Source: Bacteroidota bacterium (GTDB lineage Bacteria > Bacteroidota > Bacteroidia > 2-12-FULL-35-15). Taken from it: 64,000 nucleotides of DNA. This document shows positions 33,305 through 50,822 of this stretch, one piece after another. The stretch lies in assembly GCA_017303895.1 (NCBI GenBank), contig JAFLBF010000013.1, forward strand, positions 1-64,000, read 5' to 3'. Each line of letters starts with the position of its first letter. Position 1 is the first letter of the stretch. The position numbers and the translations under genes were made by a program. Under the pieces are notes generated by a model. That model was not told the DNA's origin and made no database searches. It was given only the letters and a program-made list of their open reading frames with translations.

Positions 33305-33694
33305 ATGTCAACACTCATCAAAATAAATCGCTCTGATGTTTATCCGGATATTATTCTGGATAAAGAAAATGGCGTTTTTGAGATACGTGGCATTTCTCTT
33401 CCTCAAGATGCACGTGAGTTCTATCAGCCTGTTTTGGATTTCTTAACGGAATACGCACAAAAGCCCAATAAGGTGACCATTTTTGTATTTAATATGAAAT
33501 ACTTTAATGTGTCTTCTGCTAAAATGATCATGTTTGTTTTATACAAGCTAAAAGAGATCTATGAAAAAGGAAACACCGTATTAGTGACCTGGTGCTATGA
33601 TGATGAAGATATCAAAGAGGCCGGACAGGATTTTGAGCACATGATCAAGATCCCTTTTCAATTTAAGGAAGTATTTGAATTAGAACCTGCTTAA
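33305..33694 (+). CDS. SiaC-like regulatory phosphoprotein (DUF1987)
   Basis: 129 residues without signal peptide. DUF1987 proteins include Pseudomonas SiaC, which is phosphorylated by the SiaB kinase, dephosphorylated by the SpoIIE-type phosphatase SiaA, and then activates a partner. The DUF1987 pattern YPDIILDKENGVFEIRGISL, YFNVSSAK and the ending with IPFQFKEV is clear. At the position of the known phospho-threonine (Thr68 in SiaC, in the sequence N-T-S-S as I recall it) this protein has Val69 followed by Ser70-Ser71. Several SpoIIE phosphatases in the window are possible partners. Its stop overlaps the convergent NUDIX stop by 4 bases. Confidence 0.85.
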   Translation: MSTLIKINRSDVYPDIILDKENGVFEIRGISLPQDAREFYQPVLDFLTEYAQKPNKVTIFVFNMKYFNVSSAKMIMFVLYKLKEIYEKGNTVLVTWCYDDEDIKEAGQDFEHMIKIPFQFKEVFELEPA

Positions 33695-48014: not shown

Positions 48015-49292
48015 ATGAAAACAAACTTAAGTCCAACAACCTTGAATTCTAATATGAGTTCAAAAGAAAAGCAAACGACATCAACAGAAAATTTGTTGTT
48101 ATTCCTGAATCTGAACATGCTTGAAAAATACACCAGCAAAACCTATGATCTGTATGCCCGTTTATTTGATGTGAAAAAATGGTCATTATTGACCTTGTTC
48201 ATTGCATTAAGTTCTATTGGATGGTCACAGGATTCAATCCTCAATAAAACCTCAGGTAAAACCATTGTTACCGTATTGAATATTGATACAAAAGGTATAG
48301 AGGCGAAGCCTGATCAAATGGGAAGTATGGTGCGTATTGAATTAGAAAAACTGAATATGTTTCAGGTGATGGATGCTTACGATGTAAATTATGTGATCGA
48401 GAAGAATAAGATCAACATCGCCAATTGTTATGGTAAAATGTGTTTGGTAGAAGTCGGAAAGATCATCAAGTCGGATAAAATGTTTACCGGTAGTGTGGAG
48501 AAAATAGGAAAGAACATTGTTGTAACGTTCCGTTTGATCGATGTAGCAAGCGGCACCATCGAAAAGTCGCAAGTAGGTGAGTACCTCGACTTGCAGGATG
48601 ATATTCAAAGCATGATCAAGATCACGATGCAGAAAATGTTTGGAAAAGAACCACTGCCGGAACCTGTTCAAACTGCTTTAACTGAAAAGAATTCGTTTGA
48701 AAATGCTACCAATAATCCGGATCAAACAAAAGTGAATCTTTCCGGACCACGTATGGGATTTGCTTATTTTACAGGTGAAGTAGGAGAAGTGTTTCAAATG
48801 CCAAAGAATAAAGGCGGTTTTGATGCCTATCCTGTTCATTTTCAATTTGGATATCAGTTTGAAGTTCAGTATTTGAACGAAGGAAACAATCAAGCTTTAT
48901 TTGAATTCTTGCCAATGGTTACCGGCTTTAATCAAAACATATTTATTCCCAGCTTAACGATCATGAATGGTTTTAGAAATAACAAATACGGCTGGGAAAT
49001 TGCCTTTGGTCCAACCTTCAATGTTACACGTAAAGCAGATGGGTATTACGATGGAGCTGGTGAATGGCATTTGAAAAATGACTGGACAGATCCTTACTCA
49101 TCAAATCCATATTCAATTGAAAAGCGAGTAGATAGTAGAGGAGAGTTGGAATTTCAGGCAGGATTTATCATTGCTGCTGGTAAAACATTTAAGTCGGGTA
49201 AGTTGAACATACCTGTGAATATTTACGCTGTTCCCAATAAAGATGGTTTGAGGTTGGGACTTTCTTTTGGATTTAATGCCAAGAGAAGATAA
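48015..49292 (+). CDS. Envelope protein with CsgG/TolB-N-like domain and outer-membrane beta-barrel-like C-terminus
   Basis: 425 residues. An unusual N-terminal part of about 55 polar residues precedes a hydrophobic segment WSLLTLFIALSSIGWSQ, which looks like a signal peptide placed about 55 residues in; a second Met (MNMLEKYTS) or later start is possible. Residues about 75-210 (TIVTVLNIDTKGIEA, RIELEKLNMFQVMD, GKIIKSDKMFTGSVEKIG) resemble the CsgG/TolB N-terminal fold. From about 235 on, alternating strands (GFAYFTGEVGEVF, HFQFGYQFEVQYL, LRLGLSFGFNAKRR) look like a beta-barrel. It ends at a strong terminator. Confidence 0.65.
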   Translation: MKTNLSPTTLNSNMSSKEKQTTSTENLLLFLNLNMLEKYTSKTYDLYARLFDVKKWSLLTLFIALSSIGWSQDSILNKTSGKTIVTVLNIDTKGIEAKPDQMGSMVRIELEKLNMFQVMDAYDVNYVIEKNKINIANCYGKMCLVEVGKIIKSDKMFTGSVEKIGKNIVVTFRLIDVASGTIEKSQVGEYLDLQDDIQSMIKITMQKMFGKEPLPEPVQTALTEKNSFENATNNPDQTKVNLSGPRMGFAYFTGEVGEVFQMPKNKGGFDAYPVHFQFGYQFEVQYLNEGNNQALFEFLPMVTGFNQNIFIPSLTIMNGFRNNKYGWEIAFGPTFNVTRKADGYYDGAGEWHLKNDWTDPYSSNPYSIEKRVDSRGELEFQAGFIIAAGKTFKSGKLNIPVNIYAVPNKDGLRLGLSFGFNAKRR

Positions 49293-49311
49293 AAAAGCCT
49301 TAGTGCTTTTT

Positions 49312-49345
49312 AAGCCCCTGCATGAATGTGTCAGGGGCTTTTTTT
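49312..49345 (+). terminator. Terminator of the orphan operon
   Basis: AAGCCCCTG - 11-base loop - CAGGGGCTT with T-run, 20 bases after the stop at 49292. Confidence 0.9.
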
Positions 49346-49377
49346 GTTTTTGAAAATGCTGTCATCAAAAAAAAAAG

Positions 49378-49407
49378 TTTGATATTTAAAAATTAACGAT
49401 ACATTTG
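49378..49407 (+). promoter_or_regulatory. Strong promoter upstream of a 38-residue frame and the PAS-SpoIIE gene
   Basis: TTTG (49378-49381), 18-base spacer, TACATTTG (49400-49407): a full match to the Bacteroidota consensus and one of the two best promoters in the window. The predicted start is near 49414, 10 bases before the small ATG. Confidence 0.7.
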
Positions 49408-49423
49408 TGCCATCAAAAATAGA

Positions 49424-49540
49424 ATGGCTAAGAAATTACATATCTCAAATTCTACATTTAATTCGTTCGGTTATTGGGGCCGAATTAGCTATTCTATGCC
49501 CATTATGCGCGTCAATCGCATTACGATCATTCGTAAGTAA
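49424..49540 (+). CDS. 38-residue basic peptide (possible leader peptide)
   Basis: Sequence begins MAKKLHISNSTFNSFGYWG and ends MRVNRITIIRK. It is basic, with no signal or membrane segment. It begins 17 bases after a near-consensus promoter and ends 86 bases before the PAS-SpoIIE start. Either a small protein or a leader peptide; codon use is unremarkable. Nothing else explains this 333-base interval. Confidence 0.45.
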   Translation: MAKKLHISNSTFNSFGYWGRISYSMPIMRVNRITIIRK

Positions 49541-49598
49541 TCACCGGCAGATCGCCTTTTAGGCACACACAATCAATTTTTTACTGAAATCAATTTAA

Positions 49599-49612
49599 TG
49601 GTCATTTGACCA
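49599..49612. promoter_or_regulatory. TGGTCA-TT-TGACCA inverted repeat
   Basis: Perfect 6-bp arms with a 2-base centre, ending 13 bases before the ATG of the PAS-SpoIIE gene. It is a candidate operator or translation-control element. A related TTGGTCATCCAA lies in the leader of the TPR array (63762-63775). Confidence 0.4.
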
Positions 49613-49625
49613 ATTACTATTTGTT

Positions 49626-50786
49626 ATGTCACTCGTTACAGATGCTATACTCGAAAAACTCAATAGTTTGATCGTAGTTGTTAATAAACTAGGAGAGGTT
49701 GAATATGTTAGTCCTTCCGCAAAGCGGATCCTAGGCTTTGAGCCCGAACAATTGATGGGACAAGGCTGGTGGGAGCTGACCCGTGATGATGCGGATGAAC
49801 GTGCCGACATCAAAGCATTGGCTTTGCAGCAATTGAAACAGGATTCTTTGCTTGCTGCTGTTCCGTATGAACGTTTGTTAAAAACTGCTACGGGGAATGA
49901 TCGGTGGATCTTGTGGAATACATCGAAAGGACCGGAGAATACATTGGTGGGGATAGGTCATGATATCACCGACAGAAAAAAAGCGGAGCAACAACTGGTA
50001 GAAAAGAACAAAGAGCTGGTACAACATAACAAAGATATGTTGGACAGTATCCAGTATGCCAGCAGGATACAGGAAGCGATATTGCCCGATGTGCAGAAGA
50101 TACGCGCTGCATTTAAAGATGCCTTTGTGTTGTTTCAGCCGAAAGATGTAGTGAGTGGCGATTATTATTTCTTTTATCAAAGAGGAAATAAAGCATTCAT
50201 AGCAGCGGTTGATTGTACAGGACATGGTGTGCCGGGCGCTTTGATGAGCATTATTGCAAATGGGATCTTAAAAGAAGTGATCGTAAAAAAGGGGATAGAA
50301 GAACCTTCGGAGATCTTGTATGCGCTGGATGAAGAGTTATTTGTGGCTTTGAATAAAAAAGGGGATGGCTCTGTTACGAATGATGGGATGGATGTCGCAT
50401 TGGGTGTATTCGATTTTGTAGAAAACACATTTTCGTATGCAGGCGCCTTCCGTCCTATGTTGATGGTGAGAGATGGTGATTTTATAGAATTTGAAGGAAA
50501 CCGTTTTCCTATCGGGTTTTATGGAGATGCTGAGAAAGTATTTACAACAACTACTGTTGAAGTAAAGCAAGGAGATAGTTTTTATTTTTTTACGGATGGC
50601 TATTGCGATCAGTTTGGTGGAGAGCAAAAAAAGAAGTTCAACCGGAAAAGGTTTAAAGAACTGTTGCTATCTGCACAATCGATGGAGATGGAAGAGCAGG
50701 AGTCGTTTTTGCAATATGCACATCTAAACTGGAGACAGGATGAGCCACAGGTGGATGATCTGCTGGTAATAGGGTTGCAGTTATAA
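49626..50786 (+). CDS. PAS - SpoIIE protein phosphatase
   Basis: 386 residues, cytoplasmic. The PAS domain is at about 8-125 (LIVVVNKLGEVEYVSPSAKRI ... GHDITDRKKAEQQL), then a coiled coil with linker DSIQYASRIQEAILP. The SpoIIE/PP2C domain covers about 155-386 (PKDVVSGDYYFF, VDCTGHGVPGALMS, DGMDVALG, FTDGYCDQFGG). It is the shortest of the three phosphatases here and the only one with a PAS sensor. It has its own terminator, converging on the DUF6580 gene. Confidence 0.92.
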   Translation: MSLVTDAILEKLNSLIVVVNKLGEVEYVSPSAKRILGFEPEQLMGQGWWELTRDDADERADIKALALQQLKQDSLLAAVPYERLLKTATGNDRWILWNTSKGPENTLVGIGHDITDRKKAEQQLVEKNKELVQHNKDMLDSIQYASRIQEAILPDVQKIRAAFKDAFVLFQPKDVVSGDYYFFYQRGNKAFIAAVDCTGHGVPGALMSIIANGILKEVIVKKGIEEPSEILYALDEELFVALNKKGDGSVTNDGMDVALGVFDFVENTFSYAGAFRPMLMVRDGDFIEFEGNRFPIGFYGDAEKVFTTTTVEVKQGDSFYFFTDGYCDQFGGEQKKKFNRKRFKELLLSAQSMEMEEQESFLQYAHLNWRQDEPQVDDLLVIGLQL

Positions 50787-50788
50787 AC

Positions 50789-50822
50789 AAAAAAGGCGAA
50801 ACAAATTGTTTCGCCTTTTTTT
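50789..50822. terminator. Bidirectional terminator
   Basis: AAAAAAGGCGAAACAA with TTTCGCCTTTTTT, at least 9 GC-containing pairs with A-run before and T-run after, between two convergent genes. Confidence 0.85.

Follow-up and report, generated by a model that had tools for sequence, protein, structure and literature searches.

Leader-peptide transcription attenuation is the means by which amino-acid operons of the trpL, hisL, pheL and ilvL type are controlled, and the attenuators that have been characterised mostly sense a single amino acid or pathway and control the genes of that pathway. The leader described here has the same parts as these systems: a promoter, a short leader peptide, nested hairpins and a gene that would be regulated, with the putative regulatory codons likewise placed toward the end of the peptide. 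It differs from them in that its family mixes many kinds of residue and has no codon run for a single amino acid, in that the gene concerned is a signalling phosphatase and not a biosynthetic operon, and in that the leader has no clear intrinsic terminator in the window (the whole stretch of 64,000 nucleotides that was analysed).

Attenuation by leader peptides has been reported for the amino-acid operons of F. psychrophilum (PMC9723704). The toiL and whiB7 upstream open reading frames (uORFs) offer a second comparison, made by description and not by homology, because in these cases one uORF answers several kinds of ribosome stall (PMC12121999). toiL differs in controlling a toxin-antitoxin operon, and it is not known to have a 'one of each amino acid' composition (PMC12121999). 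According to the same authors, most characterised regulatory uORFs have been proposed to answer a single stress (PMC12121999). Among the matches listed in a search of the open-access literature, we found no description of a Bacteroidota SpoIIE leader peptide of this kind and none of a leader peptide kept for its amino-acid variety.

Our best explanation of the interval is that it forms the 5' leader of the phosphatase mRNA and works as a leader-peptide attenuator that responds when many amino acids are in short supply and that stands before a signalling phosphatase; we give this reading not quite an even chance of being correct.

Organisation of the locus

The phosphatase gene and the features around it are as follows.

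49378–49407, + strand: leader promoter of the Bacteroidota type (TTTG, 18 bases, TACATTTG), read from the sequence
49424–49540, + strand: leader uORF of 38 codons, MAKKLHISNSTFNSFGYWGRISYSMPIMRVNRITIIRK, read directly, with a uORF at the same place in orthologues
49626–50786, + strand: main ORF, a PAS-SpoIIE (PP2C) phosphatase with a SiaA-like catalytic domain, from Pfam, NCBIfam and PDB matches
50789–50821, + strand: strong terminator-like hairpin 3' of the phosphatase gene, from an inverted-repeat scan

The original prediction placed a near-perfect promoter, a 38-codon frame and 85 bases with a TGGTCA-TT-TGACCA repeat ahead of the phosphatase, and direct reading agrees with this layout in all but one detail. 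The promoter has TTTG at 49378-49381, N18, and TACATTTG at 49400-49407; the uORF begins with ATG at 49424, so that the spacing from box to ATG measures 16 bases and not the 17 first given. The frame ends with TAA at 49538-49540, from which 85 bases lead to the phosphatase ATG at 49626, and the repeat is found at 49599-49612. To call the promoter near-perfect is apt for the -7 box, which is identical in 10 of 10 aligned leaders, and too generous for the -33 TTTG, which is less well conserved in the same leaders. The motif of the primary sigma factor in F. psychrophilum is TAnnTTTG (PMC9723704).

The gene upstream of the leader ends at 49292. On its 3' side, within 49305-49350, GCCCCTG...CAGGGGC is followed by a T run and is likely to be a terminator; the inverted-repeat scan omitted this hairpin, probably since its loop is longer than 8. 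Given its own promoter, its leader and the terminator-like hairpins on either flank, the phosphatase unit is probably a one-gene transcript carrying its own leader.

The phosphatase matches SpoIIE (1.2e-20) and PAS_9 (1.1e-10) in Pfam and a 'putative serine phosphatase', 6k4e_A, in the PDB (5e-38). The NCBIfam SiaA model matches the phosphatase domain only (1.5e-55), and its 189 bits miss the equivalog cut-off of 700 bits; judged by these matches, the domain appears closest to the SiaA-type PP2C enzymes while falling under the cut-off for SiaA proper. Its catalytic domain is thus related to that of SiaA of Pseudomonas, and unlike SiaA the protein carries an N-terminal PAS domain before the phosphatase domain. 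RsbP, a phosphatase of the PAS-PP2C type, is another comparison. Because the genome has five SiaC-family genes, a SiaC-like protein is a candidate substrate; none of the five adjoins the phosphatase gene, the nearest being about 16 kb off. A SiaC-family (PF09345) gene lies inside the window at 33326-33670, and at least one was present in 32 of 37 genomes searched. SpoIIE-domain phosphatases are abundant, with 32 matches at E<=1e-30 in this genome and counts per genome that reach at least 53 in relatives. The leaders examined below are the upstream regions of orthologues of the window phosphatase alone.

Conservation of the uORF in orthologous leaders

A peptide search of 36 genomes of the genus (35 congeners and the organism's own) matched nothing but the query itself at E<0.05. 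This search was set aside as a conservation test because the peptide evolves too fast, and the uORF was followed through the orthologues of its neighbouring gene. The phosphatase has one orthologue each, at 76-82% identity, in ten of the 35 congeners, and it has matches at E<=1e-100 in 22 of 295 genomes drawn from the class, including its own and three congeners. A relative's phosphatase used as the query found matches in 39 of the 87 genomes of one family, and the window's phosphatase did so in 9 of the 46 genomes of another; further named orthologue records came from the GTDB scan. The leader set consists of complete upstream regions, nine matches of the search that yielded 39 being left out, and repeated records and truncated regions were removed before leaders were counted.

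Of the 68 orthologous leaders from across the class that could be read, 67 have a uORF of 20-45 codons, which ends 38-145 bases ahead of the phosphatase. The exception is leader L044, in which the open frame continues up to the gene. The statistics were drawn from 66 of the leaders. Their uORFs start with ATG (48), GTG (14) or TTG (4); 58 start at most 30 bases from a TAnn[TC]TTG box, two start 31-60 bases from one and six have no box. The starts in L041, L049 and 23 later-added leaders were placed by hand. A mechanical rule that takes the first ATG 3-30 bases downstream of a TAnn[TC]TTG box finds a uORF in 41 of the 66 leaders, each time in the same frame as the curated call. Applied to a 464 kb sample of the genome (the window plus 400 kb), the rule picks out 7 of 270 ORFs of at least 200 aa, and one of these is the phosphatase itself.

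These counts bear on the simplest alternative, that the frame arose by chance and has no function. Its case is the peptide search of the 36 genus genomes, with its lone self-match below E 0.05. Against it stand the presence of a uORF in 67 of 68 leaders, the yield of the mechanical rule (41 of 66 orthologous leaders versus 6 of the 269 remaining long ORFs in the genome sample), and the covariation and composition described below, and we consider a chance frame barely credible. It is conservation in relatives, and not the sequence alone, that places the frame beyond chance; as a class-wide feature of these leaders the uORF is almost certainly real. The original prediction named a lack of conservation as its refutation, and this did not occur: the frame is kept. 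The peptide sequence is another matter, with no relative at E<0.05 in the 35 congeners. The window peptide belongs to a recognisable group: its YW.R and MPI recur in, for instance, MATQLNIKNLFIGSYHYWNRMCHFMPIIWNNQFTIIYR (L076) and MKTQLNIANLSIFSPIYWGRMCHYMPIISIFHPWTINR (L040), and its TII motif also occurs in L076.

Constraint on the peptide

In an alignment of ten leaders there are four gap sites within the uORF, every one of them 3 bases in length, an indirect sign of translation; the gaps before its start and after its stop vary in length. The comparison of synonymous with nonsynonymous change that had been proposed as a check was made as dN/dS for pairs of uORFs with an identity of 67% or more. 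Group C shows clear purifying selection (0.17-0.40, below 1 in 5 of the 5 pairs listed), the picture in group B is mixed (0.28-1.25, below 1 in 9 of the 10 pairs listed), and no such selection is evident among the window's relatives of the same group (0.67-1.60, from the five pairs for which a value was obtained), so that the exact peptide matters little there; the window's own uORF has no relative close enough for an estimate. Over the family, constraint on the exact peptide is weak and that on its composition, described below, is strong.

Three roles had been suggested for the interval: a regulatory leader, a small protein partner or a small RNA. The first is well supported by its conserved place, its promoter, its uORF and the covarying RNA, all ahead of orthologous genes. 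That the frame encodes a functional small protein, for instance a phosphatase partner or a membrane peptide, is very improbable in our estimation. Its position is conserved, and to the eye several group B peptides resemble a hydrophobic stretch bearing a basic tail, but their lengths range over 20-45 codons, sequence turnover is high with near-free amino-acid variation in the window's group, and searches of Pfam and NCBIfam with the window's peptide matched no family. The membrane-peptide reading drawn from group B was dropped, as the other groups, the window's included, are not hydrophobic-looking by eye. A free small RNA is not favoured: the window has no Rfam match at the gathering score, hence none to a known leader or riboswitch, the sub-threshold matches in the leader having E values of 0.16-4.3; and in every case found, in a search made upstream of orthologous genes, the element sits on the coding strand ahead of the gene.

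Amino-acid composition of the uORF family

Composition was compared with dinucleotide-preserving shuffles in the 51 uORFs that remained of the 66 after thinning. Trp (z +8.4), Met (+8.6), Arg (+5.2), Asn (+5.2), Cys (+4.6) and Thr (+3.7) are in excess, and Leu (-8.6), Ala (-7.3), Asp (-5.4) and Val (-4.5) are depleted. The 51 peptides hold no Glu and two Asp residues, and few of Ala, Gly, Val and Leu. His, Tyr, Phe and Pro show no excess over the shuffles, although each stands above its share in the phosphatase. Enrichment over the shuffles is inversely related to abundance in the phosphatase (Spearman -0.58, p=0.007). The bias belongs to the frame, with W/C/H/M making up a fraction of 0.215 in the frame of the uORF and about 0.10 in the other two frames (35 peptides), and it is concentrated near the stop, W/C/M accounting for 21-31% of residues in the 18 positions nearest the stop and 2-9% of those farther away.

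Variety within each peptide was assessed by permuting residues among peptides 5000 times, with lengths and overall composition kept. The peptides contain 14.22 amino-acid types on average, against 13.16±0.16 after permutation (maximum 13.82 in 5000). All six of W, C, M, Y, F and R are present in 34 of the 51 peptides, where permutation gives 14.1±2.7 (maximum 25). Unlike the type count, this set was chosen with the data already in view. Taken one at a time, W, C, Y, F, M, P and R are each over-present (p<=0.031), which does not hold for H, L, Q, S, I, N, T, K, A or G. These permutation p values are optimistic even after thinning, as the peptides share descent. The excess in type count survives eleven samplings of 30-51 peptides, in which Met, Pro and Arg are often non-significant singly, and it is also found for sets of 34 and 23 ATG uORFs called purely by rule. 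As a control, 69 promoter-proximal ORFs of the same genome deviate in the opposite direction (12.78 types versus 13.43 permuted), and they contain 92 acidic residues among 1835.

The window's own peptide is without Cys. With a composition score of 7.8 it ranks third among the 136 candidate ORFs from the genome sample, slightly short of the 99th percentile, and 15 of the 51 family members score at or below this value. The idea that leaders of this type precede many genes was rejected, only two candidates in the 464 kb outscoring the window's: one is a frame at 7.9 with nine amino-acid types, and the other is the MMCCMMC leader. The latter lies at about 288084 on the minus strand of the organism's genome (about 8084 in locus L186), where the leader peptide MNNNFTYTLSTINRPMMCCMMCI is followed by a terminator-like hairpin, then by an aldo/keto-reductase-like frame and, farther on, by a frame resembling sulphite reductase (names assigned by eye). 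It looks like an ordinary Met/Cys attenuator, and its presence in the same genome makes leader-peptide attenuation plausible in this organism.

Such a leader ahead of reductase-like genes also lends some weight to the idea that our uORF serves an attenuator of narrower range, such as one for sulphur or aromatic amino acids, with the rest of its composition incidental. So does the near-universal presence of Cys (50 of 51 peptides), internal Met (49 of 51) and, to a lesser extent, Trp (41 of 51). We hold this to be improbable: no single-codon run is conserved, Tyr, Phe, Arg and Pro are over-present and evenly spread as well (Pro and Arg more weakly in some thinnings), and the lack of Cys in the window's peptide fits it poorly.

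A somewhat different possibility is that the uORF senses general ribosome stress, such as that caused by ribosome-targeting compounds, or arrests ribosomes through its nascent chain, and does not report a shortage of charged tRNA. Arrest peptides usually retain a fixed motif; in this family the sequence drifts and amino-acid variety is what stays. A basic peptide with almost no Asp or Glu and an excess of Arg would suit the exit tunnel, yet charge does not explain the excess of Trp, Met and Cys. The toiL-like uORFs respond to stalls at many positions, and the whiB7 uORF is cited as responsive to antibiotics and to amino-acid starvation (PMC12121999), precedents that keep a general stress sensor in contention as an unlikely, but not negligible, explanation.

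RNA structure of the leader

The elements found between the promoter and the phosphatase gene are these.

49419–49430, + strand: 5' arm of P1, a long-range stem over the uORF start codon, AUAGAAUGGCUA; predicted fold and cognate pairing test
49486–49497, + strand: 3' arm of P1, inside the uORF, UAGCUAUUCUAU; predicted fold and cognate pairing test
49465–49485, + strand: hairpin P2, inside the uORF; predicted fold and covariation
49505–49521, + strand: hairpin P3 (ATGCG...CGCAT); read from the letters, and helix 2 of the covariation analysis
49521–49536, + strand: second inverted repeat, immediately ahead of the uORF stop, TTACGATCATTCGTAA; read from the letters, with 5 of 6 pairs in the fold
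49554–49564, + strand: small inverted repeat P5, 3' of the uORF stop, GCCTTTTAGGC; read from the letters
49599–49612, + strand: hairpin P6, TGGTCATTTGACCA, 13 bases before the phosphatase start codon; inverted-repeat scan

Most of the leaders listed are more stable than their shuffles, the window's with a z of -2.7; that of L012 is +0.1. In the window P1 is a predicted stem of 12 pairs that joins the start codon region to codons 21-25. In the 14 thinned leaders of the window's type, the start region pairs with its cognate region at +52..+77 at -11.3 kcal/mol, against -7.6±0.7 kcal/mol for permuted partners (p<1/3000). In the other 37 leaders the element that pairs with the start sits beyond the uORF stop (p=0.0097 for the stretch +8..+33 from that stop and 0.004 for -50..-25 from the gene, as the best of 31 segments scanned). 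Across all 51, pairing of the start region exceeds permutation for the final 30 bases ahead of the gene (p=0.0018); for the last 12 uORF codons and for the stop region it does not (p 0.87 and 0.92).

Covariation in P2 and P3 was assessed in an alignment of the window with nine group B leaders. There are 14 double-change cells, against 4.9±2.0 in shuffled alignments, and 85% of cells are paired, against 34-45% in slid versions. In P2 (helix 1), 5 of the 8 pairs have changed on both sides; the window's own P2 lies in a shifted register in its best fold. In P3 (helix 2), 83.3% of cells are paired, and only the inner three pairs appear in the window's minimum-energy fold. RNAalifold over the whole leader returned P2 and P3 only. 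P5 is absent from the window's minimum-energy fold, and equivalents such as GCTTCTAAGAAGC occur in relatives.

Folding of 18 leaders of the window's type gave, in all 18, a hairpin within the 42 bases that precede the gene. The stems at the position of P6 differ in sequence yet remain complementary (GGTC/GACC, GGTT/AACC, GACT/AGTC, GGCA/TGCC); their single z values are modest, running from -2.7 to +0.2 with a mean excess of -2.1 kcal/mol, and they are weak in L011, L012 and L041. In the window no U-tract follows P6. Among the 37 leaders of the other groups, 19 close a start-region stem with an energy of -6 kcal/mol or better, and in 9 of the 19 at least five T occur within the next 8 bases, an example being AATAAGC...GCTTATTG and then TTCTTTTTTT; T content after the closing stem is only slightly higher than in the region at large (mean 4.21 of 8 versus 3.63). 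In some relatives the closed stem thus resembles an intrinsic terminator. In L082, L083, L085, L087 and L088, AATAAGC at the uORF start is complementary to GCTTATTG, which lies after the uORF stop and is followed by TTCTTTTTT; this long-range, terminator-like stem encloses the uORF.

The evidence of pairing in P1 and of covariation in P2 and P3 and the recurrence of a P6 hairpin, together with the weak constraint on the peptide in the window's group, could be taken to mean that the leader is a structured RNA in which the overlapping frame merely fine-tunes translation, by coupling or by sequestration of the start site, with no sensing of codons. This seems to us quite improbable, as RNA structure alone explains neither the evenness of amino-acid types nor the in-frame gaps and the frame-specific W/C/H/M composition.

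Switching was modelled by equilibrium folding with a ribosome footprint in five leaders, every fourth codon being tried in the window. There the accessibility of the phosphatase start stayed at 0.39-0.50 throughout (0.42 when free), with no clear switch. In L076 it rose from 0.31 to 0.43-0.53 with the ribosome on codons 0-8, and not with the ribosome placed from codon 12 onwards. A ribosome on roughly the first nine codons abolished the closing stem of L088 (group C), with little effect beyond, and this is not the part in which most Trp, Cys and Met codons lie. As footprint folding gave no clean switch, the switching step in the mechanism that follows is one that we infer.

A possible mechanism and its implications

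Like the classical attenuators, these leaders have a conserved short ORF between promoter and gene (67 of 68) and conserved pairing that involves the uORF, as seen in the P1 cognate test and the P2/P3 covariation. Putative regulatory codons are present in an unusual mixed form. We propose that a short uORF is translated whose initiation region is complementary to a downstream element of the leader, so that ribosome traffic on the uORF and folding of the leader would be mutually exclusive: since the start region is complementary to a later element, the closed fold should form only when no ribosome occupies that region. The uORF would serve as a check list that avoids the usually plentiful Glu, Asp, Ala, Gly, Val and Leu. 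In the family as a whole, Trp, Cys, Met, Tyr, Phe, Arg and Pro each tend to occur at least once in a peptide, the last 18 codons being the place of Trp, Cys and Met. Being built of scarce residues, the uORF would make ribosome traffic depend on the charging of many tRNAs. Were any of several charged tRNAs to run short, the ribosome would be slowed on the uORF, the leader would refold and expression of the phosphatase would be altered, most likely upwards by analogy with amino-acid attenuators. The output could be transcription termination, as the U-tracts after the stem in some relatives suggest, or translation initiation; given the lack of a U-tract after P6, control of initiation is at least as likely in the window.

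Stated in its fullest form, the proposal is that of a pan-amino-acid attenuator, in which one check-list peptide of scarce or costly residues reports how well tRNAs in general are charged and governs the amount of a PAS-PP2C phosphatase. We advance this tentatively, as a reading with rather less than an even chance. The case carries a warning that ordinary peptide searches can miss uORFs of this kind, the window's having been exposed by the orthologues of its neighbouring gene. If the proposal is true, a leader kept for its variety ahead of a signalling enzyme would represent a new sensing principle and would offer a direct entry to the coupling of starvation and protein phosphorylation in these mostly uncultured Bacteroidota, which would gain, beside (p)ppGpp, a cis-acting starvation input to a protein-phosphorylation switch.
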